From the IMG/VR virus record IMGVR_UViG_3300027538_000100, positions 1 through 20,971 of that record: a DNA stretch of 20,971 nt; one strand, given 5' to 3'. This DNA comes from a virus. This document shows, piece by piece, positions 1 to 20,836 of the stretch (positions are counted from its first letter, which is position 1; every line of letters begins with the position of its first letter). The notes beneath the pieces were generated by a model that saw only the letters and a list, made by a program, of their open reading frames with translations, did not search any database and was not told the origin of the DNA. Both the position numbers and the translations under genes were made by a program.

Positions 1-422
1 TGCACAATGTTAGTACTACTACTCCAAATCACAGGCTGATTCAGAGGATTAACAATTGGGCTTCCTGTTTGTTTATCAATAGCAGTAATTGCTGACGGAA
101 TGTAGTTTCCGTAGGTCAGTTCTACTCGCCAAAATACACCACTTTGAGAAACTTTTTCTATGTTCCCACACTGAAGAAGAACAAAGTTGGCTGATTTTGG
201 ATGTGTCGAGAAGTAGAAGCTGAATGTGATACCTGCCGGATTGAAATCCGTATTACCGGGAAAACCAGCGGCAGGTAGCGTATCAATCAGTTGAAAGATA
301 TGATCGGTAACGTTGTAGGCTTCTACCAGAGCTACTTCTGTGAACTCTGTCTCATTGAAGTTTGGTCTACCGCGTTCTTCATCACGAATGAAACCGTGTA
401 TCTTCTTTACACCGTTTGGCAT
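1..422 (-). CDS. Distal tail-region protein, C-terminus cut by window edge
   Basis: An open frame of 140 codons starts MPNGVKKIHGFIRDEERG and runs off the left edge without a stop. Its ATG (422-420) overlaps the TGA of the tape measure gene in an ATGA junction, so translation is probably coupled to that gene. The visible part is rich in beta-type and aromatic residues (for example GITFSFYFSTHP and FWRVELTYGNYIP) with no signal peptide, membrane segment or coiled coil. I do not recognise the family. In lambda-like phages the position just after the tape measure is held by distal tail or tail-tip genes (M/L type), and that is the only basis for the role suggested. That the frame is a real gene is supported by the exact coupling and by continuous non-repetitive coding sequence. 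Confidence 0.72.
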   Translation of the reverse strand, partial: MPNGVKKIHGFIRDEERGRPNFNETEFTEVALVEAYNVTDHIFQLIDTLPAAGFPGNTDFNPAGITFSFYFSTHPKSANFVLLQCGNIEKVSQSGVFWRVELTYGNYIPSAITAIDKQTGSPIVNPLNQPVIWSSSTNIV

Positions 423-2995
423 CACTTCACCTCAACAAATTTAATACCACCACGAGGATTATTAATCGCGTCTCTGATTGCTTTCAGTTCTCTGATCATG
501 GCTTTGTCTTTGGTATCACCCATAGCTCCCATGATCTGAGCGTTAGCATCTCCAAGAGCCTGAATCTTAGAAACAGTGTCAATTGACATTTTTGGTGCAG
601 AATCTTTCCACTGCTGTTCTAACTCATTTGCACGAGCCATTGCATTATTGTTGAATATGTTTTCAAGGTCTGCAGGTCCGGCAATACCAGATTCCATAAT
701 CTCAGCACGTTTTTTAGCCCATTCGTACTGAATCTTCTGTTCCTTAGTCATCTGAGACATTAACAAAGCTTCTTCAGACATTGCTTTGAGTTTTTCAAAC
801 TCTAGCTCATTGTTATCCATTTCTTCGTTTACTTGTCGTTGACGTGCTGCAGCTTCTTCGGCATCTTTGATTTTGTTTTCAACTTCCCATCGTTCTCTAG
901 CGATACGTAAACCTTCTTTACCGAGATCTTCGTATTCTTTTTCAAGTTCGATAAGACGTTGCTTACTTTCGATTTCTTTCTGCTGCCATTCTTCAACTGC
1001 TCCAGCTAACTGAAGCTTCATGTACAGTGGCTCAAGTTCGTTAACTTCAAATGTATTGATTTTGGTCTGTCGAGCTTCACGTAGATCATTGATCTCAGTT
1101 TCGATTGCAAGAATCTTTTTATCAGCTTCTTCAATCTTTTTCAGATTACCTTCGTAATCCGTCAACATGGAATCTAGTTTTTCTTTATCATCAAGTAGTT
1201 TTTTGATGTTGTCTGTTGATGTGATATCAGGTCCAAAGGTATCCGGACTTCCATCTAGCGTTGGATTTTCCAATCTTGATTTAGCTGTTAATGTACGTAA
1301 ATCGTTTTCCAAACTTACCATATCTTTATGGTAGTTTTTCAATACGTCTTCAAAGCGTACATCACCATTTTCTAATTGCTGTGCAAATCTGTTATTAATG
1401 GCTTCGTATTGTTTTTCAAGTTGATCAGCTAATAGTCGTTCTTCAACAGACAATTCACTTTTCAACTGTTTGATGCCGTCTTTAACAGCTTTAACTTCGG
1501 CAGTAGGAATCAATGTGCTTGCTAGTGAATTCTTGAATGCAGCATGTTCTTGAATCAGTTTGTCACGTTCATTTTTTGCGTTAGGAATACTATTTTCCTT
1601 TTCACGCATTGAACGATCTAGATCCCGTACTGAGAAGTTTTTATCCTGTATCTGTCTCGCATTAGACTGGATATCGATCTGTTGAGAAACAGCATCGTTA
1701 AACCGTGTGTATTCTTCTGTAAGTCGGCGTAGTGACGTAGCCTGTGCGTCAAATGCGTCAGACGCACCCCATACTGAGGAAATAAGCTGTCCGCCAAGAA
1801 TACCCGTAACAGACAAAGCAGCACCTAGCAACGGACCACCCATCAATGACGCAGCTTGTCCGATGTTGTTAGAAGCACCTCTCATAGCCATGCCGACACT
1901 GTTGATGTTGTAACCAGTGATGGACATAACCGTAATGAAGTCTTCAGCACCACGAGCAAGTTCACCAACAGCATATCCAAGATTACCAGCACCGTTACGC
2001 ATAGCCTGCTGTCTTCGTGTAGCTTCAGCAGTAGCTTCATTGTATGCGTCAAGTGTGATAAGTCCGTTAGCTCTGGCTACATCAAGTCTTCTAAGATCCT
2101 CAGTGATGATATGAGTTTGGTTACCGTACAGGCGTAGAAGTCTGTTTGCTTCCTGCTGCTCTGGTGAGATTTGACGTTCAAGAGCTAACTGACGTTGTAG
2201 TTCGGCGTTCAATTCAGCCTTAGCTCGTGCCAGCACTTCCGTAGACGATCCTGCCTTTGCTGCATCATCTCTGATCTTTGCCAAATTTCTGACGTAGGTT
2301 GCCTCTGGTGATTCAAATCGCTGCATTCTAGCTGCAGCTTGTGATTTAAGGGCCAGCCTACTATCAAGTTCTTCTTTGCGTTCTCTTGCTTTAATTTCCT
2401 GATCTTCATAATGCTTTCGCATCTGAGCAAGAACAACGTTAGAAGATCTTTCAAATTCAATTTGTTTTAAGTCTGCTGCTTGAATTCTTGCAAGACGTCT
2501 TTCACTAGCTTGCTGTTCTGCAGCTTCTGAACGTGCAAGAATGTCTCGTTTGAGAGTTTCCAACTCAATGAGTCTGCTCTTTTCAGATTCAATATTCTCA
2601 GCTTGAAATGCTAAACCTGCTTTATTGATTCTGTCATTTTCAACAGCTTCAATTTTCAAATACGAACTGTAGATTGCCTCCAATTCTTTATGGTAGGTAT
2701 CAGCACCGATAACCTTAGCACTCATAAGATTATCAAGACGTTCCATAGCTTTTGTAGCATCTTCGTTAGCCAATGCTACAGGGTCAGCATGCTTACGTCT
2801 GAGTTTTTCTCCTTCAGCACGCATCACAGCCATTTGTTCGGCTTTGATACGGTCTTCCGTAGACTTACGCATCTTCTCATTTTGTTTGATTGTTGCAGCA
2901 GTAAAGTTAGACATGAGTTTTTCAGCAGATGAGAATGAGTCCTCATCGCGAACCATGTTCAGCTTTACTGCCCAATCATGAATGGATTCAGCCAT
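422..2995 (-). CDS. Tail tape measure protein
   Basis: 857 residues, by far the longest gene in the tail region. Residues 1-330 and 420-840 are highly charged heptad-type helix (long runs rich in E, K, R, Q and A), predicted to be coiled coil. Between them, at about residues 335-420, lies a glycine/alanine-rich hydrophobic stretch (AASLMGGPLLGAALSVTGIL and neighbours). A coiled-coil rod with a central hydrophobic segment, placed right after the tail chaperone pair, is the usual form of siphovirus tape measures. These set tail length and help DNA cross the envelope. At the usual rule of about 0.15 nm per residue the tail would be near 130 nm (inference). The ATG at 2995-2993 overlaps the end of the frameshifted chaperone extension by 8 nt. 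No lytic transglycosylase or peptidase motif is visible. Confidence 0.9.
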   Translation of the reverse strand: MAESIHDWAVKLNMVRDEDSFSSAEKLMSNFTAATIKQNEKMRKSTEDRIKAEQMAVMRAEGEKLRRKHADPVALANEDATKAMERLDNLMSAKVIGADTYHKELEAIYSSYLKIEAVENDRINKAGLAFQAENIESEKSRLIELETLKRDILARSEAAEQQASERRLARIQAADLKQIEFERSSNVVLAQMRKHYEDQEIKARERKEELDSRLALKSQAAARMQRFESPEATYVRNLAKIRDDAAKAGSSTEVLARAKAELNAELQRQLALERQISPEQQEANRLLRLYGNQTHIITEDLRRLDVARANGLITLDAYNEATAEATRRQQAMRNGAGNLGYAVGELARGAEDFITVMSITGYNINSVGMAMRGASNNIGQAASLMGGPLLGAALSVTGILGGQLISSVWGASDAFDAQATSLRRLTEEYTRFNDAVSQQIDIQSNARQIQDKNFSVRDLDRSMREKENSIPNAKNERDKLIQEHAAFKNSLASTLIPTAEVKAVKDGIKQLKSELSVEERLLADQLEKQYEAINNRFAQQLENGDVRFEDVLKNYHKDMVSLENDLRTLTAKSRLENPTLDGSPDTFGPDITSTDNIKKLLDDKEKLDSMLTDYEGNLKKIEEADKKILAIETEINDLREARQTKINTFEVNELEPLYMKLQLAGAVEEWQQKEIESKQRLIELEKEYEDLGKEGLRIARERWEVENKIKDAEEAAARQRQVNEEMDNNELEFEKLKAMSEEALLMSQMTKEQKIQYEWAKKRAEIMESGIAGPADLENIFNNNAMARANELEQQWKDSAPKMSIDTVSKIQALGDANAQIMGAMGDTKDKAMIRELKAIRDAINNPRGGIKFVEVK

Positions 2996-3742
2996 TTGTT
3001 TTTCCTAAACCTTCAAACATACCGAAGATACTGCTACGTAGTACGTCTGCTGTTTCAATTACGAATGGTTTATGTGAGCATTTTTCCAATGCCCATGATT
3101 TAATTTGAATAGGATCAATTGGCGGTTTACCTGTCCTGTGTGCAACGATTTGGGAGGCTACCAAAGAAGAAATATCGTCCGATATTCCCCATTGATGAGC
3201 CTCCCAATACGATCGCTGAAAGATGAATTCAGTAGCAGGTAGTTCTTTGATGATCCACGAAGGAACGCCCCAGCGAGTAGATAGAAAACCTATGAACCAC
3301 TCATCTGACTCCGGGGTTAGTCGTTTTTTAGTTCTTCCTTTTTCTTCTGAGATACCATCAATTCATCATCGATGATTCTAAACCATTCGTTAATAGCACT
3401 GAGAGGAATAGAATCAGCTACGTTGTGGAGAAACTCAACAAATTCTTCATCCGGCAGAGCCATTACTTCCTCTGCAGATAATGGTTGTTGATTTTCGAGT
3501 TTCTTAAATGCGTTGTAGAAAATCCCTGCTATCGATGTAGAACATTCATCATTCACAACTGTGTGAATACAGGTGAGAACATGAATAGTTTTCCATAGCG
3601 AAGCAGGGATGTTTCCTTCAGCATCAGTAATAAGTTTGACCTTCTTTACAGCGTTAGTGTAAGCCCCTGTAGAGGGTTCGCGAAGACAGAACTTATCGTT
3701 GATGATGTGAACACGGTACAGAGAGTTGAAAATAGGGAACAT
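2988..3742 (-). CDS. Tail assembly chaperone fusion (GT-type) by -1 frameshift
   Basis: If ribosomes slip back one base at A AAA AAC (3329-3323), the 0-frame chaperone continues into a 111-codon open frame (3323-2991, stop TGA at 2990-2988), giving a protein of about 251 residues. I translated this extension and found no stop. It reads like real protein, with RWGVPSWIIKELPATEFIF, SYWEAHQWGISDD and IQIKSWALEKCS. It has no ATG near its beginning and no Shine-Dalgarno; its first ATG is only a few codons from the end. Lambda and many other siphoviruses make G and GT tail chaperones this way, with the T part binding the tail tube protein and the G part coating the tape measure. Gene order (tube, G, T, tape measure) and sizes (141 and about 251 residues) fit. 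Frameshifting itself is inferred. Confidence 0.85.
3317..3742 (-). CDS. Tail assembly chaperone, short form (G-type)
   Basis: 141 residues starting MFPIFNSLYRVHIINDKF. The ATG (3742-3740) is preceded by AAGGAT at 3756-3751. The protein is mostly helical with an acidic C-terminal half and ends in a lysine-rich stretch (KKKEELKND) encoded over the slippery run. I see no catalytic motif. The assignment rests on position between the tail tube and tape measure genes, size close to lambda G (140 residues), and the -1 frameshift signal just before the stop codon. In the lambda model this short form, made in excess, coats the tape measure protein before the tube polymerises and is absent from the finished virion. 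The sequence identity alone would not have named it. Confidence 0.82.
   Translation of the reverse strand: MFPIFNSLYRVHIINDKFCLREPSTGAYTNAVKKVKLITDAEGNIPASLWKTIHVLTCIHTVVNDECSTSIAGIFYNAFKKLENQQPLSAEEVMALPDEEFVEFLHNVADSIPLSAINEWFRIIDDELMVSQKKKEELKND
3323..3329 (-). promoter_or_regulatory. -1 ribosomal frameshift slippery heptamer A AAA AAC
   Basis: Read on the minus strand the chaperone frame is CTA AAA AAC GAC TAA, so A AAA AAC sits exactly in X XXY YYZ phase (3329-3323), two codons before the 0-frame stop at 3319-3317. After slipping, both tRNAs re-pair on AAA AAA and the -1 frame stays open for 111 codons. A AAA AAC is among the well-known bacterial slippery heptamers. I did not identify a convincing Shine-Dalgarno-like stimulator or a strong downstream hairpin, although AAGGAAGAA lies just 5' of the site and could act as an internal stimulator. 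Confidence 0.85.
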
Positions 3743-3757
3743 GTAGGGGCATCCTTA

Positions 3758-4252
3758 TTATGAACCGGGAGTGATAGTAATATCGCCTGCAATCTTGATT
3801 GTCAGATTACAGCGTGAACGAGATTCATCACCATTACCCATAACGTTAGTCATAGGATTGAAGTTAGTAACAAATCCCGGAATAGTGATGATAGGGCCAG
3901 TTGTTTCACCAACTGCCTTAGGAAACTTGAACTTGTAATCACCTGTCAGACCAGATTTGAATGCTGCGTACAGACGACCACCAGTTGTAGTAAGAGCATC
4001 TGGAGACCAGTCAGCATCAAAGCTGATTGACCCCATATCGATTTCTTTACCAGCCTGAAACGCTGCAACAAGGTTACCGAAGGCATCCAGAGTAGTTTCT
4101 GAACAGTCAGAACGTACAGGTTGTCTTGAGAAACCTGTCCAACTGAAGTTACCTGTCAAGCAGATATAAGTGTCGGTAGACGCTGTAGGCGTACCATCAC
4201 CTGTATCGTCAATCAAAGGCAATTGAACACGTACACGACTTGCATCACGCAT
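3758..4252 (-). CDS. Major tail tube protein
   Basis: 164 residues. The ATG at 4252 has AAGGA about nine bases upstream, overlapping the previous gene's stop region. The sequence is beta-rich and polar, with no membrane segment. Segments LTGNFSWTGFSRQPVRSDCS, MGSISFDADWSPD and NLTIKIAGDITIT have the look of tail tube subunits, in which a rolled beta sandwich and a long loop polymerise into hexameric rings around the tape measure. The position between a tail-terminator-like gene and the tail chaperones is that of lambda V. It lacks the C-terminal Ig-like domain found in lambda V and ends directly after the tube-like core. The family is inferred from length, composition and synteny rather than a signature motif. 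Confidence 0.8.
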   Translation of the reverse strand: MRDASRVRVQLPLIDDTGDGTPTASTDTYICLTGNFSWTGFSRQPVRSDCSETTLDAFGNLVAAFQAGKEIDMGSISFDADWSPDALTTTGGRLYAAFKSGLTGDYKFKFPKAVGETTGPIITIPGFVTNFNPMTNVMGNGDESRSRCNLTIKIAGDITITPGS

Positions 4253-4736: not shown

Positions 4737-5428
4737 TTGTTAGCATTCCTGATCTTACGCTGTATTAGGCGTATTGTACTCTGAGTAAGGGCTATTTGCA
4801 AGTGTCTTCTGAAGTCTAATAGTGGTGCCGCATCAATGTAGGCTTTCTGAACAAAGTTATAACCTTCTACGGCTCTACCACTGTGGTGCATGAACCCTCT
4901 ATCAATGATATGCCAATAGTTGTTTGGTCTGCGTTTTACTATGCCCGTCTCTCTATTAGCTGTGTATGTTGAAGTTGATCTGAGTTGGGATTTGACTTCC
5001 TTTGTTTTAACTGTCCATGTCTTTGCTCTTGAGTTCCATTTTCTTGTTGTTTTCTCTGCCTTCAAAGCCATTCCTTTTAGGTTTGATCGGCCAGAGTATC
5101 TTCTTTTGATTTTTCCTTTTTGAGCAACTAACTGATTCAGATAGTGAACTTCAACTGCACGTCTCTGAATACCAGCATAGGCGTAGAATATATTTTTGTT
5201 TTTCTTACTACGTCCTGCTTTTGATGTGACTGCTCTTACCGTAGCACCTGTTGATTGTAGACTTTTTCTCAGTGAAACACTCGCTCTGAGTTTTAGTTTG
5301 TCTCTTGCTGGACGAATGGCATGACGAAGAGACTGAGCAATAGCAAGATTTGCTTCGTTGTTCAGAGAGTCCATAATCTCTCTAACATTTTCGGTGAGCT
5401 TAAATTCAAATCTTACAATGCCATGCAT
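4733..5428 (-). CDS. HK97 gp10 / Z-like neck or minor tail protein
   Basis: 231 residues and strongly basic, with arginine/lysine-rich stretches throughout (for example KRRYSGRSNLKGMALKAEKT). It opens with a helix (ENVREIMDSLNNEANLAIAQ) and has a later segment NNYWHIIDRGFMHHSGRAVE followed by FVQKAYIDA. That arrangement recalls the gp10-type neck proteins, where an invariant 'W..i..G' segment precedes a 'PF...A' helix. Such proteins act at the head-tail interface, like lambda Z. The gene sits between the head closure and tail terminator genes, as expected. The central basic insertion makes it longer than typical gp10 proteins. The Shine-Dalgarno is weak; the start lies 1 nt past the upstream stop, so coupling is likely. 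Confidence 0.62.
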   Translation of the reverse strand: MHGIVRFEFKLTENVREIMDSLNNEANLAIAQSLRHAIRPARDKLKLRASVSLRKSLQSTGATVRAVTSKAGRSKKNKNIFYAYAGIQRRAVEVHYLNQLVAQKGKIKRRYSGRSNLKGMALKAEKTTRKWNSRAKTWTVKTKEVKSQLRSTSTYTANRETGIVKRRPNNYWHIIDRGFMHHSGRAVEGYNFVQKAYIDAAPLLDFRRHLQIALTQSTIRLIQRKIRNANK

Positions 5429-13095: not shown

Positions 13096-14759
13096 GGATT
13101 TTCAACAAACTTAAATTGTGTTGTTTTGAATGTCTTTTGAGCGTCTTCTGATATCCAGATGAATTTCAATCGACCTTCGTAAGTAAACTCTGGAACGCCT
13201 TTAGAGGTTTCTGAAGAAGGAAGTATAATACTAACTACGCTTGATGCATAGGTACACACTCCTGTAATCCATTTTGATTCTGGATCGCCTGTTCTGTAGG
13301 CTATGAATTCAATGTCAGCGTCAACAAGAGCCAGAGAACCGATTGACGTAATCGGATCGCCTTCACTGTCAAGAATAGATACCTCAATATCTCCTGTGTC
13401 AGCATCATAGCTGTCACCGATGATTAATTCTGAAGGGAAACCTGTAATAGTTCCCGGAGCAAGAACAGCAGCAGCTATTAGAGAAGTGTTGCCTTGTGCT
13501 GTTCCGATAAGATCTGTTTTAGCTTTTACCTGTAGTAATGTGGTCTGTGAGGCATCACCGGCACCAGCAGTAGCAGAGTCACTAATCGCTTCCAGAGAAT
13601 CAGTTGTGCCAGCGAATGTTGCAGTGCCGCCAGTGTTGATTTCGGTCTGAGCAGTTGTCATGCCTGCAGTACCTGCATCCTTCCGACTGATTCGGCGAAC
13701 CCAGTCAGCCAGAGAGGTAATACCTGTGAACAGAGTAGAGGTGATACGTGTTACAAGATTACCTGTATCCGTTTTGACTGCAGCAATATCTGCAGCAACT
13801 GATGTAACAGGAGTACCGATTTTAGTGCTTACAGAAGCAATATCGTTAGATACCGTTACTGAAGGAATACCAATACGAGTCAGAATTGTATTAATCTGAG
13901 TAGCCGAATCATAGTCCACAATCTGTGGCATAATCACAGCAAACCGAGCTTCACCGCTGACTGTTCCTGAAGCTGCAAGTTTCAATGTTTCGTTTGTTGA
14001 AGACGAAGCAATAGTGATGGTGATTCCATATCGGCCCGTAGCAATAGTGCTTGTTGCAGTGATGAGAGCAGAACGGTCTGTACCTGAAGCATTAACAAGA
14101 GTTAATGATGGTGTTGAGTCCAAAGCAACCAGTTTGTCTTCATCGTCTTTCACAACCAGTTCAAACAGGTATACTCGATTTCCGCTGTCAGGGATTTCAA
14201 GTAATAGACTTCCGAAGATGTTTGCCTTTGCAGACAAGTTATTCAGAGCAGTGATACTGGACGCGATTGCCTGTAGTGCGGACGAATTGCTGTCAATCTC
14301 TGTTCTGATCTGCGTAACAGTAGGAGGAGTGAGACCGCTTTGATAGGCCCCAACACTTGCGTCAATTCGCCCGCTGATCAATGCAGCAGGAAGCTTCGCG
14401 AGGATCGCCGTCTGAGCATCAGAGACGTTTGTTGGGGTTGCTGGGGCAGTGTCGCTACCACGTTCAGCCAACACAACAACAGCGTGCCAGTGAAAAGGGG
14501 GTTGAGCCACTCCGCTGATAGTGACATTTTCAGCGAAACCATACACATCATGTTCCGCCTCTCCGGCAGGATCAAATGAGCATTGATACCAGCCAGTTGT
14601 TGCTGCAGGCTTTGTGACTGTGACAGACTCACCAGTCGGTACACCAGCCTTATACACGGTGATAGTAGGATTCGCATCACCATTAACAGCACCTGAGGCA
14701 TTCGACAGACGAATATCCCACGTCCAAGTTGTATCTTTTTTGAATATAGCTGGACGCAT
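13092..14759 (-). CDS. Fibre- or whisker-like protein with Ig-like domains and coiled coil
   Basis: 555 residues. Residues 1-95 form a probable beta-sandwich domain (TTWTWDIRLSNASGAVNGD through FHWHAVVVLAE). A short coiled coil follows, then a second beta domain around 185-285 (VYLFELVVKDDEDKLVALD). Next comes a heptad-type section with repeated IGxPVxSVxxDIAxVxTxT units (ILTRIGIPSVTVSNDIASVS, TKIGTPVTSVAADIAAVKTD). A C-terminal beta domain of about 110 residues (DTGDIEVSILDSEGDPITSI) resembles Ig-like or BppU-type N-terminal domains of tail appendages. Such trimeric rods usually bind host surface or decorate the neck. It is joined by TAATG to the repeat protein gene before it and by ATGA to terminase after it. 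Function is inferred from architecture. Confidence 0.6.
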   Translation of the reverse strand: MRPAIFKKDTTWTWDIRLSNASGAVNGDANPTITVYKAGVPTGESVTVTKPAATTGWYQCSFDPAGEAEHDVYGFAENVTISGVAQPPFHWHAVVVLAERGSDTAPATPTNVSDAQTAILAKLPAALISGRIDASVGAYQSGLTPPTVTQIRTEIDSNSSALQAIASSITALNNLSAKANIFGSLLLEIPDSGNRVYLFELVVKDDEDKLVALDSTPSLTLVNASGTDRSALITATSTIATGRYGITITIASSSTNETLKLAASGTVSGEARFAVIMPQIVDYDSATQINTILTRIGIPSVTVSNDIASVSTKIGTPVTSVAADIAAVKTDTGNLVTRITSTLFTGITSLADWVRRISRKDAGTAGMTTAQTEINTGGTATFAGTTDSLEAISDSATAGAGDASQTTLLQVKAKTDLIGTAQGNTSLIAAAVLAPGTITGFPSELIIGDSYDADTGDIEVSILDSEGDPITSIGSLALVDADIEFIAYRTGDPESKWITGVCTYASSVVSIILPSSETSKGVPEFTYEGRLKFIWISEDAQKTFKTTQFKFVENP

Positions 14760-15814
14760 TATGTTGCCCCAAATACTGAAGGAGGATGAAACACATTTTT
14801 GACCCCACCAGCGGAAAGTGTTACGAGTGTTCCGCTTGAATCTCTGACCCCAAGAGTCGCCACAGACAAGTCAATGAAAGCGACCTTGCCTGCATAAGGG
14901 AACACTCGATTGGTTCCCATCTCTGCACTTGCGATTGTTGTACTTCCAGTAACAGAACTGTTCACACCCGGACCCACATTGGAAATTGCCTTACCATTTA
15001 CAGTCAGTGTGCCTGTTCCTGTGTTACTAGCTCCGTAGGCCGTCGCGTTGCTGCCACCAGTGGCGTTGCCGGTGACTGTGATAGTTCCAGAGGACGAATT
15101 GAGAGCACCTATAGCAATTGCTGCCGAGCCACCGACAACAGAGCCGACTATAGTAATTGTGCCCGATCCGGCATTTTGCAACCCTGACGTGCTGCTCGCG
15201 GTGCCGCCAGTGACAGTGCCAGTCACTGTGCCGCCGCCACTAGCCCAGTATGCCGCCATCCCAGCCGCATTACCTGTGACAGTCCCTGTGATGTTCAGCG
15301 TTCCTGTTGACGCATTTCTCGTTCCTGCGGAAGCAGACCCAGCTCCAGCCGAGGGGTTTCCTGTGACGTTCACAGTTCCAGTAGAGTTATTGAGTACGCC
15401 GAAAGCACTCGCTGCCGCTCCTCCGGTTGGATTACCAGTGATGTTAAGCGTCCCGCTGCTGGTGTTCGAGACACCGTAGCGACTGCCCGTTGTTGCTGAT
15501 CCAATCGGATGCCCTATCAGCGTCGCAGAGTTACCGGTAGTTCCGGCGAAGGTAACGCAAGTCGTGCTACCCGCACGTGCTTCGCCGTTGCCATTATTCA
15601 ATGTCAGTGTCACCCCATTTGACAAAGTGAAACCACCACCTGCAACGGCTGTAGTCCCCGCCAGAGTGTACGCATTTTTCCAATGCGTGTTTACATTCAC
15701 GGTCACGGTGAACCCATTGGCATAGACATCATCATCTATGGCAGGGAGGGTTCCTCCATTCCATGTTGCTGTTGCGTTGGCATTTCCTGTTGCCACTGCC
15801 CATCGTTCAGCCAT
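14759..15814 (-). CDS. Gly/Thr/Asn-rich repeat (beta-helix-like) surface protein
   Basis: 351 residues, starting MAERWAVATGNANATATWNG. Residues 1-105 form a leading cap-like region containing DDDVYANGFTVTVN and ISNGVTLTL-type strands. Residues about 111-278 are seven tandem units of 23-26 residues with the pattern 'A.GvxNxssGTlnitGNxtGG', and the end is a short strand-rich cap finishing in NVFHPPSVFGAT. This layout suits a right-handed beta-helix or solenoid, common in phage fibres and adhesins. There is no signal peptide, so export would be on the virion. It is a clear paralogue of the last 380 residues of the gene before it, but is markedly richer in G+C. TAATG junctions on both sides suggest co-translation. 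Exact role unknown. Confidence 0.62.
   Translation of the reverse strand: MAERWAVATGNANATATWNGGTLPAIDDDVYANGFTVTVNVNTHWKNAYTLAGTTAVAGGGFTLSNGVTLTLNNGNGEARAGSTTCVTFAGTTGNSATLIGHPIGSATTGSRYGVSNTSSGTLNITGNPTGGAAASAFGVLNNSTGTVNVTGNPSAGAGSASAGTRNASTGTLNITGTVTGNAAGMAAYWASGGGTVTGTVTGGTASSTSGLQNAGSGTITIVGSVVGGSAAIAIGALNSSSGTITVTGNATGGSNATAYGASNTGTGTLTVNGKAISNVGPGVNSSVTGSTTIASAEMGTNRVFPYAGKVAFIDLSVATLGVRDSSGTLVTLSAGGVKNVFHPPSVFGAT
14981..15484 (-). repeat. Protein-level tandem repeat block, seven units
   Basis: Codons 111-278 of the 351-residue gene encode seven units of 23-26 residues ending in variants of TGNxTGG. The unit SNATAYGASNTGTGTLTVNG nearly matches a unit of the neighbouring paralogue. 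Identity is at the protein level; the DNA units have diverged. Confidence 0.8.
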
Positions 15815-17640
15815 TATGCAACACCTCCAAAAATAGTGGGAGGAGCGAATACACTCTTTGGAGACCCTGCAGTGAGGTTTTGTGTCGTCAACGCTGCGTT
15901 TCGAACAATAGCACTAGCAGTAGACAGGTTGGTCATCTCTACTTTACCCTCAACTGGTGCGATACAGGAAGATCCTGTTTCCATAGACTCCACACGAGTG
16001 GTTCCGGTTGTAGAACCATTCACACCAGTAGCAGTGGCGGATATTGCTTTACCGTTGACTACAAGTGTGCCACTGCTTGTGTTGCTAGCTCCGTATGCTG
16101 TGGCGTTGGTTCCGCCTGTTGCATTACCGTTCACGGTAACTGTGCCTGCACCGGCATTATACACTCCCCATGCTCTGGTACTACTCCCCCCAGTGACGTT
16201 GCCGTTAATGACAACTGTGCCGCCTACTAGATTTGCAACTCCTGTGGATAAATCAGCACCTCCACCTGTCGCATTTCCATTCACTGTCAACAACAGAGCA
16301 GATCCCCAATTGACACCGTGAGTACTACTCACACCCCCACCAGTAGCATTACCATTTATAGTAGCAGTACCGTTTGTGGTGAACCGCACTCCGGTAGTGG
16401 TAGATCCACCCAACGGAGTACCAATTGTATCACCATTCAATAACAATGATCCGGTTCCTTGGCAGCGAAGCCCTTCTGATCCTGATCCAATACCACCATA
16501 CGCGTTGCCGGTAACGACAATGTTTCCATTCGACCAGACAACCCCGATAGAGCCACCTGCTGATCCGCCTGTAGTATTTCCTATCAAATTGAATGTTCCT
16601 GTCTGGGAAACATTCACTCCATGGGCTGCAGTGTTCGTCGCTGAACCCACCACATTACCAACAAGTGTTGCTTGATTCGGAGAGGTTCCGGCATAAGTAA
16701 TACATGTCGTCGTTCCAGTGATGACGTTATTACCAGATCCGGTCAATGTCAGTGTCACACCATTCGAAATATTGAAAGTACCTCCAGCAGATGCAACTGT
16801 TCCTGCAGTGGTTCTGACTGTCTTCCAAGAGGTTGACTCATTGACTGTGACGGTATATCCATTGGCATAAACATCTTGTGTTGATGTTGGAACGGTTCCA
16901 GTGTTCCATGTTGCTCCGGAATTGCTATTCCCGCTTGCAACTGCGTAGACTTCAGTTGGCGATGCAACAGTTTCCTGCAATGCCAAAACCAACATTGCCT
17001 GAACGTTGCTGATTGGTTGTCCGTCAGCGTCGTTGGTCCATTCAAATGTTGTTGAACCAATCGCTCCGGCTGCTGCTCTAACACCTGTTGCACAAACCAT
17101 ACAACCACCGTTACCAGCGGTAGAGTTGAATGTTTTGCGAACTGTTACAGAGGTTAAATTAGCATTAGCAACAGCACAAGCAGCATCGTCGTTCAAATCT
17201 TCAGCATGTGTACCGATCAGGACAATCAAACAATCAGCAACTGATGTGGTAAATCCTGTAGCTGTGCCTGTTTGACCTGCTGAAGATAGAACGCTACCAG
17301 CAGAATGAAGAACAGGTGTTGTACCATCGACACCAGAGAATGCTGTGATCCATGCAATCTGATGATCGCCAGAGTCAGCAACAGTTGGTGCTGTGTCTCC
17401 AGATTGAGCTATTCTGCCAAATACATGTAAACGTGTTGCAGATGTTCCACCGGCAGTGCCTGTAGATTGAGGAGAGTTAGGGACTTCCGTCCATCCTGCA
17501 GGAGCAGAAACAGACTGGTTTGCTGTTTCCACTTTTAACAGCATATAATGTCCTGCAGCCCATCCAACAGGAAGTGCTGGGGTAATTGCTCCTACACCGG
17601 AAGCTTCAACACCAGATGCGACAAATGCTGGAACAGGCAT
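15814..17640 (-). CDS. Two-part surface protein: N-terminal beta domain plus repeat solenoid
   Basis: 608 residues. Residues 1-224 form a beta-rich domain with AGHYMLLKVETANQSVSAPA, GWTEVP, and HQIAWITAFSGVDGTTPVLH, ending in VQAMLVLALQE. This type of domain, seen in many phage and environmental proteins, looks like a jelly-roll or lectin-like module. From residue 229 the protein matches the next gene: cap DVYANGYTVTVN, then eight units of about 24-26 residues such as AGTVTVNGNATGG and TNATAYGASNTSSGTLVVNG, then a closing cap. The likely role is a virion appendage for adsorption (inference). GGAG lies upstream of the ATG at 17640, inside the end of the gene before it, which stops 4 nt earlier. 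No catalytic motif such as a depolymerase triad is evident. Confidence 0.62.
   Translation of the reverse strand: MPVPAFVASGVEASGVGAITPALPVGWAAGHYMLLKVETANQSVSAPAGWTEVPNSPQSTGTAGGTSATRLHVFGRIAQSGDTAPTVADSGDHQIAWITAFSGVDGTTPVLHSAGSVLSSAGQTGTATGFTTSVADCLIVLIGTHAEDLNDDAACAVANANLTSVTVRKTFNSTAGNGGCMVCATGVRAAAGAIGSTTFEWTNDADGQPISNVQAMLVLALQETVASPTEVYAVASGNSNSGATWNTGTVPTSTQDVYANGYTVTVNESTSWKTVRTTAGTVASAGGTFNISNGVTLTLTGSGNNVITGTTTCITYAGTSPNQATLVGNVVGSATNTAAHGVNVSQTGTFNLIGNTTGGSAGGSIGVVWSNGNIVVTGNAYGGIGSGSEGLRCQGTGSLLLNGDTIGTPLGGSTTTGVRFTTNGTATINGNATGGGVSSTHGVNWGSALLLTVNGNATGGGADLSTGVANLVGGTVVINGNVTGGSSTRAWGVYNAGAGTVTVNGNATGGTNATAYGASNTSSGTLVVNGKAISATATGVNGSTTGTTRVESMETGSSCIAPVEGKVEMTNLSTASAIVRNAALTTQNLTAGSPKSVFAPPTIFGGVA
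16039..16635 (-). repeat. Protein-level tandem repeat block, eight units
   Basis: Codons 336-534 of the 608-residue gene encode about eight units of 24-26 residues with the recurring core GTVTVNGNATGG. One unit (EGLRCQGTGSLLLNGDTIGT) departs from the pattern and is followed by a small insertion. Confidence 0.8.
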
Positions 17641-18889: not shown

Positions 18890-19221
18890 TAACCCGCTGT
18901 GGATTTATGTTCCCATAGATAGGCTAAGATTTGTGGAGCAATCCATTTGATGAAGAACCATACAAACCAACCTACAGCAATGGATGTTTGTAACTCCAAA
19001 TCACTGTAGGTGTTGATTTTTCCTGATCGCATTAGTTCAACGAATACAGGATAAATTTTGTCACAGGCTTTTCTTTTTCGTTTAGCTTCTTTCAAAGACT
19101 TCTTAACGTGTTCTGAGCCTAAGAAAGGAGAACGTGTCAGACCTGATATGAAAGAGTCACTACATCCGAAACTGGTATGTAGTGACGTCTGAAGGATACT
19201 TTCGGCAACAGTCATTTTCAT
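18886..19221 (-). CDS. Small basic protein with C-terminal membrane anchor
   Basis: 111 residues. A polar N-terminus (MKMTVAESILQTSLHTSFGC) is followed by a strongly basic stretch HVKKSLKEAKRKRKACDKIY at about 39-58. A single probable membrane segment lies at about 83-105 (IAVGWFVWFFIKWIAPQIL), near the C-terminus. The ATG overlaps the TGA of the gene before it (19221-19218). I do not recognise the family. Tail-anchored topology with a basic cytoplasmic part is compatible with a lysis or envelope role, but nothing proves it. Its membrane motif recurs in the first gene after the promoter. Confidence 0.58.
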   Translation of the reverse strand: MKMTVAESILQTSLHTSFGCSDSFISGLTRSPFLGSEHVKKSLKEAKRKRKACDKIYPVFVELMRSGKINTYSDLELQTSIAVGWFVWFFIKWIAPQILAYLWEHKSTAGY

Positions 19222-19988
19222 TTGAAGTTTACCGTTAGGTTTGGACAGGTTGTAAGTTCCGCCTCAATACGTTTCCCACTGTCTTTGATTGTTAGCTGTT
19301 TCAAAGATGTGGAATAACTGAAGATGCCTTTCTTCGCATGGATAGTAGGTGGTGGTGAGAATACGATTTTGTCTTTCTCAATAGAGACTGTTCGTTTACC
19401 GTTCCAGTCAATTGTAAGTACACCGTTAGTCCAGCGTTGTCCACTCATTAACGTGTTGATCATTCCCGGAACAGCATCGGGAGCATCAATATCAATTTCG
19501 AATAGTGAAGAGTATGTGTAGTCTTTACTGGATTGGCAGAGCAGATGATCTGTGAGAGTGGCAAGAAACACATGAGCAGATGGAGCGTATTGCACTTCTG
19601 CTGATTGTGTATTGATTGGAGCGGAGTAATCGAATTCAAATGGGATGCGAGTAACGATCTGACCTAGTTGTGCAGCTTCTGCAATTGAAATCTCTGTGAA
19701 GGCAATACCTTGAGACTTCAAATAGTTCTTTCTTGGAATGCAGTAGGCACAGTTGGGACCAGTGACAAGATAATGTACCTGAGGAGCACTACCTGTTACC
19801 TGATTCCATTTGACTTCAAACTTATCTTTCTTCTTCTCTTCCTTAACAGCTTCCTTGACTGCATACTGAGAAAGAACTTGTTTGTAGACTTCTCGTGCTT
19901 TTGTGAGGTGACTGTAATCGATATCCTCATAATCAGGAGGAACATATCCTTCAAACATGAGCGACAATAGTATCATCCAAGCAACCAT
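19218..19988 (-). CDS. Glutaredoxin-like CxxC protein with hydrophobic N-terminus
   Basis: 256 residues from the ATG at 19988. Residues 1-12 (MVAWMILLSLMF) are hydrophobic, resembling a short anchor or signal. A lysine/glutamate-rich helix follows (about 28-60). Residues 70-110 read VHYLVTGPNCAYCIPRKNYL..., giving a C-A-Y-C pair (Cys80, Cys83) at the start of a helix, then GIAFTEISIAE and TRIPFEFDY. This is the strand-CxxC-helix-strand pattern of glutaredoxin or thioredoxin folds, and the proline after RI could be the cis-Pro. The C-terminal 120 residues are beta-rich and unrecognised. The likely role is thiol-disulphide exchange, perhaps at the envelope. A longer frame begins at a TTG at 20000, which is actually part of the Shine-Dalgarno. 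Confidence 0.66.
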   Translation of the reverse strand: MVAWMILLSLMFEGYVPPDYEDIDYSHLTKAREVYKQVLSQYAVKEAVKEEKKKDKFEVKWNQVTGSAPQVHYLVTGPNCAYCIPRKNYLKSQGIAFTEISIAEAAQLGQIVTRIPFEFDYSAPINTQSAEVQYAPSAHVFLATLTDHLLCQSSKDYTYSSLFEIDIDAPDAVPGMINTLMSGQRWTNGVLTIDWNGKRTVSIEKDKIVFSPPPTIHAKKGIFSYSTSLKQLTIKDSGKRIEAELTTCPNLTVNFK

Positions 19989-20836
19989 TGTGAACTCCAA
20001 TCGATTTCTCGTGGTTCAGGTGAAGAAAGATCTGATACGCCGATAGTGACAGTGAAATTGCTCATTGCCTGTTGTTCGATGAACTCACGACTCTGGTAAG
20101 AGAATCCTTTGTCACCGTAGGATTCGTAATGGCTGTTAGCCTCTACCAGATAGATTACCCCATCAATAGTAATCCAGTCAACGTATGAGCGAGCATGACC
20201 GCCTCCACCGTCAACAAAACGAGTACAAATACCTCTTGCATTAGGTCTCCAGTTTCCCCATGAACCGCCAACAATGACAGCACCTTGGTTAGCTTGCAGG
20301 AATCGAAGAATATCATCAAAGCCTTTAAGCTCAATTGAATAACCAATCTTCCAATCCGCTGCAATCTGAGCAGCGTTAGGAGGATAGGTCATGTTGTAGT
20401 CTTGTCGGTATGGAACTTCTACAACACCATCATTATCGAAGTCTTCAGGCAGGAAGCCTGTATTCTTAGAAGCTTTAACAACACCGTGGATAGTAGCACC
20501 ACTGTCACCACGAATGTTGTTGACTTCCTGTCCACGACGATAGGACCACATTGGGTTGAACTGTTGCCATTTCAGAGTTTGAAGGTAGTATGTTACTTCT
20601 CCGGAGTTGGTCATACCGAAGCCAGCACAACTACTGATTCGCCCCTGATCGTCTCGTCTCATGAGTTCTTTGATATTGCGTGTTGGTGGAATATCACCAC
20701 ACACTACAAAATCTTTAGGATCGAAGTCGATACACTCAGCTTTGAGGAGTTCTCTTAGCTCAGCGTGTTTATCGTAACCTGACCACCATTCATCAGGAAT
20801 AAACGATCGTCCCTGTGGTGTAACGATGCGACTCAT
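19973..20836 (-). CDS. Papain-like (C1-type) cysteine peptidase
   Basis: 287 residues. GRISSCAGFGMTNS (about 65-78) corresponds to the active-site helix of papain-type enzymes, with the nucleophile at Cys70. GGGGHARSYVDWITIDG (about 210-226) supplies His214, and VEANSHYESYGDKGF (about 231-245) the Asn234 that takes the place of 'NSWG..WG..Gy' in papain. The order Cys-His-Asn and the motif around Asn fit family C1. There is no signal peptide or obvious propeptide. AAGGAA lies six bases before the ATG, which overlaps the previous gene's stop. As a phage protein it could act as a lysin or virion-associated peptidase on peptide cross-links, or on host proteins. The specific target cannot be read from the sequence. 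Confidence 0.72.
   Translation of the reverse strand: MSRIVTPQGRSFIPDEWWSGYDKHAELRELLKAECIDFDPKDFVVCGDIPPTRNIKELMRRDDQGRISSCAGFGMTNSGEVTYYLQTLKWQQFNPMWSYRRGQEVNNIRGDSGATIHGVVKASKNTGFLPEDFDNDGVVEVPYRQDYNMTYPPNAAQIAADWKIGYSIELKGFDDILRFLQANQGAVIVGGSWGNWRPNARGICTRFVDGGGGHARSYVDWITIDGVIYLVEANSHYESYGDKGFSYQSREFIEQQAMSNFTVTIGVSDLSSPEPREIDWSSQWLLG
19995..19998 (-). promoter_or_regulatory. Ribosome binding site deciding the CxxC protein start
   Basis: GGAG on the minus strand, six bases before the ATG at 19988-19986. It shows that the upstream TTG at 20000 is not the start. Confidence 0.7.

Follow-up and report, generated by a model that had tools for sequence, protein, structure and literature searches.

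A probable programmed -1 frameshift joins the G and T frames of a putative tail assembly chaperone in a diverged phage family

Results

The window, the whole 20,971-nucleotide stretch of viral DNA analysed here, very probably carries a textbook G/GT tail chaperone made by programmed -1 frameshifting, a member of a diverged chaperone family. The phage itself is siphovirus-like, and its head genes are of the HK97 type. An initial annotation had proposed a programmed -1 frameshift leading to a GT-type chaperone. Comparison with relatives supports this proposal through the frame relation of G and T (41/41 members), purifying selection in both frames, the retained slipperiness of the heptamers at the junction, and a downstream stem-loop that appears to be selected in the family. 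In the proposed mechanism, most ribosomes would terminate at the TAA at 3319-3317 to give G (141 aa), and a minority would slip back one base on A_AAA_AAC to give GT (251 aa), probably aided by an upstream SD-like AAGGA and a downstream stem-loop. We infer that the ribosome, not the polymerase, slips, and likewise the slip rate and the chaperone function.

The features discussed below, in the order of transcription, are as follows.

3758-4252, minus strand: upstream gene, probable major tail tube protein (164 aa, lambda V position), from a PF16461 match and its place as a conserved neighbour of G in relatives
3317-3742, minus strand: gene G, putative 0-frame tail assembly chaperone (ORF with ATG start, 141 aa), from relatives, dN/dS and an AF2 model
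2988-3742, minus strand: GT, predicted -1 fusion of 251 aa, computed from a slip at the heptamer; architecture common to 41 distinct members
3336-3340, minus strand: SD-like AAGGA, possible stimulator, 6 bases 5' of the heptamer
3323-3329, minus strand: slippery heptamer A_AAA_AAC, kept or swapped for another X_XXY_YYZ in 41/41
2988-3323, minus strand: T domain of 111 aa, read in the -1 frame and closed by the TGA at 2990-2988, from alignment, purifying selection and a start-codon scan
3268-3316, minus strand: predicted stem-loop, 6 bases downstream of the heptamer, whose outer stem (CCCCGG/CUGGGG) pairs 3316-3311 with 3273-3268
422-2995, minus strand: downstream gene, probable tape measure protein (857 aa, lambda H position), from position, length and order
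Predicted GT junction peptide: ...EELKNRLTPESDEWF

Genomic setting

The order around G, tube-G-GT-long gene, is the V-G-GT-H order of lambda, with the tube and tape-measure identities of the two neighbours drawn from weak or positional evidence. The gene before G matches the lambda tail tube family PF16461 with an E-value of 0.0093, below the curated cut-off, and the 857-aa gene, whose ATG (2995) overlaps the end of T (2988), had no Pfam or PHROG match. Upstream, the terminase, portal, protease and capsid genes have strong PHROG matches.

Other genes in the window also drew our attention. Upstream of the terminase, two adjacent minus-strand genes (14759-15814 and 15814-17640) encode 47%-identical repetitive proteins of a TVNGNATGG type, which returned no match in Pfam and PHROG searches and are perhaps beta-solenoid decoration or adhesin proteins. 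The minus-strand gene at 19218-20000 contains a weak glutaredoxin/thioredoxin-like segment, and the 287-aa gene at 19973-20836 on the same strand has no family match and resembles, by eye, a papain-type cysteine peptidase (SCAGFG motif).

A conserved frame relation among relatives

Relatives were sought in viral contigs of IMG/VR, of which the window is one, with G, T and the terminase, portal and capsid proteins as queries. This yielded 41 distinct G/T pairs, namely the window's sequence and 40 others; one of the 41 (L002) is protein-identical to the window. In all 41 the T frame is -1 relative to G and open, and a canonical heptamer lies at the junction; the initial annotation had named stops in the -1 frame or a broken heptamer in relatives as evidence against its reading, and neither was found. 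Because 41 distinct members share the architecture, a chance origin of the layout is ruled out. The relatives also refute the idea that the junction stems from faulty sequencing or assembly, or from an indel that turned the gene into a pseudogene: the distinct sequences come from many contigs, and both G and T are under purifying selection. We consider the probability of such an artefact negligible.

In searches of 50,697 phage records the GT region had no match at the DNA or protein level in named phages (one chance-level match was seen), and of 13 pattern matches in bacterial genome contigs none was confirmed, so neither search pointed to a host. Rfam and tRNA scans returned no match.

The slippery heptamer

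G ends in CTA AAA AAC GAC TAA, with its stop TAA at 3319-3317. The A_AAA_AAC within this sequence is phased for a tandem -1 slip, and one sense codon separates it from the stop. A count of in-frame X_XXY_YYZ heptamers gave 11 in 6,493 codons, which corresponds to approximately 0.025 expected in the 15-codon overlap. Among the 41 distinct members, 37 have A_AAA_AAC, three have G_GGA_AAC (L045, L048, L072) and one has A_AAA_AAA (L070). A tree of 24 members, judged by its well-supported branches, calls for at least two separate switches to G_GGA_AAC. On the same tree the codon whose last base opens the heptamer has changed at least 12 times, with the first triplet always intact; the codons found there among relatives are CTA, GTA, GCA, GAA, ACA, GGA and AAG (L, V, A, E, T, G and K). 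Only 21% of third codon positions in G are A.

In relatives, zero or one codon separates the heptamer from the G stop, except in L046, where G runs ten codons beyond it. This member also has about 313 bases without an assigned gene between the tube gene and G (15425-15737). The most divergent member, L070, has eight A at its junction (4985-5007, GAA AAA AAA GAT TAG).

Runs of A of this kind could be read by a slipping polymerase, and a shifted mRNA population would then encode GT without any ribosomal frameshifting. The six-A run at the window's junction is compatible with such transcriptional slippage, as is the longer run in L070, in which it is more plausible than in other members. However, the three members with G_GGA_AAC, which fall in two lineages, have no long homopolymer at the slip point and still place T in the -1 frame, and the conserved X_XXY_YYZ phase, together with the stem-loop and SD-like element, points to the ribosome. 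Because of the G_GGA_AAC switches in particular, we favor ribosomal slippage and regard slippage during transcription as very unlikely.

The T extension is coding and lacks a conserved start

From the last base of the heptamer the -1 frame runs for exactly 111 codons to the TGA at 2990-2988, which gives a fusion of 251 aa. These values, and the junction at a phased A AAA AAC, agree on recomputation with those in the initial annotation. An open -1 frame of this length has a probability of about 0.001 by chance at the window's composition. The annotation had further claimed that this stretch is coding even though no ATG-started gene lies in it and that ORF calling would miss it. The first claim is borne out by purifying selection (below); as to the second, the sole called ORF of at least 50 aa on the minus strand inside the T stretch is a 58-aa TTG ORF at 3164-2988. 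T thus represents coding sequence that routine gene prediction would overlook in these uncultured phages.

Alignment of T revealed a core motif, WF-x3-L-x2-RWG...P-x2-E...WG-x2-DD, and 16 columns, the first at residue 4, that do not vary across 17 members. A profile of this core (WF-x3-L-x2-RWG...WG-x2-DD) could be used to find T elsewhere. Counting synonymous and non-synonymous differences between pairs of relatives gave dN/dS values of 0.037-0.28 for G and, when T was read in its own frame, 0.009-0.258 for T. When the T bases were read in the other two frames, values were mostly 0.75-5.9, the exceptions being near-identical pairs with few changes (L074/L077, 0.46-0.60; L029/L036, 0.16). These ratios, which also answer to the check on codon conservation in both frames that had been proposed, indicate that the G and T frames are both under purifying selection.

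T could alternatively be a separate protein with its own start downstream of G. The -1 frame is open for 3-61 codons upstream of the extension among relatives (13 codons ahead of the first extension residue in the window), and in some of them an in-frame start codon lies close to the junction. In the window, however, the first ATG, GTG or TTG in the -1 frame is the TTG at extension residue 54, which falls inside the conserved domain, and several relatives likewise lack one ahead of residue 28. A separate start is therefore not conserved. Conserved T residues begin at positions 4-10 of the extension. Independent initiation would also leave the conservation of the heptamer unexplained, and we view it as extremely improbable compared with expression of T as part of a GT fusion.

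Possible stimulatory elements around the heptamer

Both SD-like elements and structures downstream of the slip site are known to stimulate -1 frameshifting (PMC10885494). Many relatives carry an SD-like AGGA approximately 6 bases 5' of the heptamer (AAGGA at 3340-3336 in the window). Of 18 non-redundant members, 11 have their best anti-SD match 5-7 bases upstream of the heptamer, the window's AAGGA being one of these; the members are homologous and hence not independent.

Most relatives have a stem-loop that opens about 6 bases downstream of the heptamer. Compared with dinucleotide shuffles, bases 5-65 gave z-scores of -2 to -5.5 in many members. A stronger control than shuffling redraws synonymous codons while keeping the amino acids. 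Against it, the summed energy over the 18 non-redundant members was -403 versus -256 +/- 13 kcal/mol (11 SD), and the number of stem pairs was 159 versus 120 +/- 6. In the family alignment 83% of stem cells are paired, versus at most 57% when every partner is slid. One pair, 14-51 in alignment A3, covaries: of 25 sequences, 16 have A-U and 5 have G-C. At this pair a nearly fixed Arg codon has a third base that tracks the opposing codon (Fisher p 0.0006, uncorrected for kinship), and the well-supported branches of the tree require the G-C state to have changed at least three times. As a control on covariation, shuffling gave a moderate result, with the score reached in 15/500. The window's own stem-loop is shifted by a base and has an energy of -17.2 kcal/mol, which alone is non-significant (p 0.26 versus synonymous controls). 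Overall, these comparisons indicate that the downstream structure is under selection in the family.

In E. coli, A_AAA_AAC is far less shifty than A_AAA_AAG (PMC5009743), and its rate may differ in this phage's own host. Given that the heptamer ends in AAC in all but one member and that the stem-loop appears to be selected, stimulators or the host Asn tRNA may set the rate. One proposal, on which we are evenly divided, is that the frameshift operates as a three-part cassette, consisting of an SD-like element, a heptamer with Asn AAC as its second codon, and a covarying stem-loop. The heptamer would have been swapped at least twice, from A_AAA_AAC to G_GGA_AAC, with the rest retained, and the poor shifting of AAC known from E. 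coli would be offset by the stimulators or by a more slip-prone host Asn tRNA. The family offers a natural experiment in which the heptamer is exchanged and the probably stimulatory stem-loop is conserved.

Protein identity

Neither G nor T of the window matched Pfam or PHROGs above noise. The AF2 model of G (pLDDT 84) has as its top match among all PDB chains the HK97 tail assembly chaperone 2OB9, a weak match (E 0.17, probability 0.30, TM ~0.3), and among viral models it matched several entries named 'tail assembly chaperone', below significance. The T model has lower confidence (pLDDT 73), and a fold search in viral models returned nothing significant.

Alignment of the extension with T-domain families, a check suggested by the initial annotation, gave weak matches at most. 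Three of 17 members matched PF06223 (Phage_tail_T; best E 0.078, under the curated cut-off), and three of 17 weakly matched phrog_337 (best E 0.0065), a family also matched by lambda T (4.7e-7); the window's own T matched neither. None of the 17 matched phrog_42, the lambda gpG family. We also tried a profile built from lambda T and seven relatives, in which residues 9-57 were collinear with 7-55; the alignment fell within the range of column-shuffled controls (P 0.047), and profile comparisons with lambda T or G were no better than chance.

A real -1 fusion at this position might have a function other than tail assembly. Consistent with this, G and T have no significant sequence match to known chaperones. 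The location between probable tube and tape-measure genes, the protein sizes and the match to the HK97 chaperone fold argue otherwise, and we think a different function highly unlikely. The assignment as a chaperone is supported by gene order, by the weak HK97 fold match and by weak hits of the T extension of a few relatives to T-domain profiles. The case for G/GT membership by position and mechanism is good; the sequences do not establish homology to lambda G/T. Judged from sequence, the family is diverged, in that the family libraries searched do not recognise it.

Comparison with known systems

The HK97 tail assembly chaperone (2OB9) is the best PDB match of the G model, although that match is weak. 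Among haloarchaeal viruses, the g-t genes of HCTV-1 and HCTV-2 use G_GGA_AAC and A_AAA_AAC, respectively (PMC5009743). Both heptamers recur in the window's family; the viruses and hosts differ, and the likeness noted here is one of heptamers. The frameshift site of E. coli dnaX, with its upstream SD-like element, A-rich heptamer and downstream stem-loop, resembles the site described here. Unlike GT, the dnaX frameshift yields a shorter product, and dnaX is a cellular gene. Its heptamer is A_AAA_AAG (PMC5009743).

Lambda G/T provides the closest parallel in gene order (tube-G-T-tape measure). The lambda-like sizes that had been claimed hold for G (140 aa in lambda, 141 aa here) but not for GT, which is 279 aa in lambda by record coordinates versus 251 aa here, where the T extension is shorter (111 aa). 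The lambda slippery site, which ends in AAG, also differs from the AAC-ending heptamer of the window. Further differences are that no sequence homology was detected and that a downstream stem-loop is conserved in the window's family. As in lambda, the predicted -1 slip lies just before the G stop and the end of T runs into the beginning of the gene that follows (PMC5009743). Lambda tails assemble only with both G and GT, at a ratio of ~30:1; the tape measure protein is bound by G and the tube protein by the T part (PMC5009743). By analogy, G would coat the tape measure protein here and the T part would recruit the tube protein, and the slip rate would set the G:GT ratio and so control tail assembly. 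The G/GT arrangement is widely conserved in long-tailed phages despite low sequence similarity (PMC5009743). The -1 frameshift principle has been known since lambda, and the phages described here provide an ordinary, well-supported new case of it.
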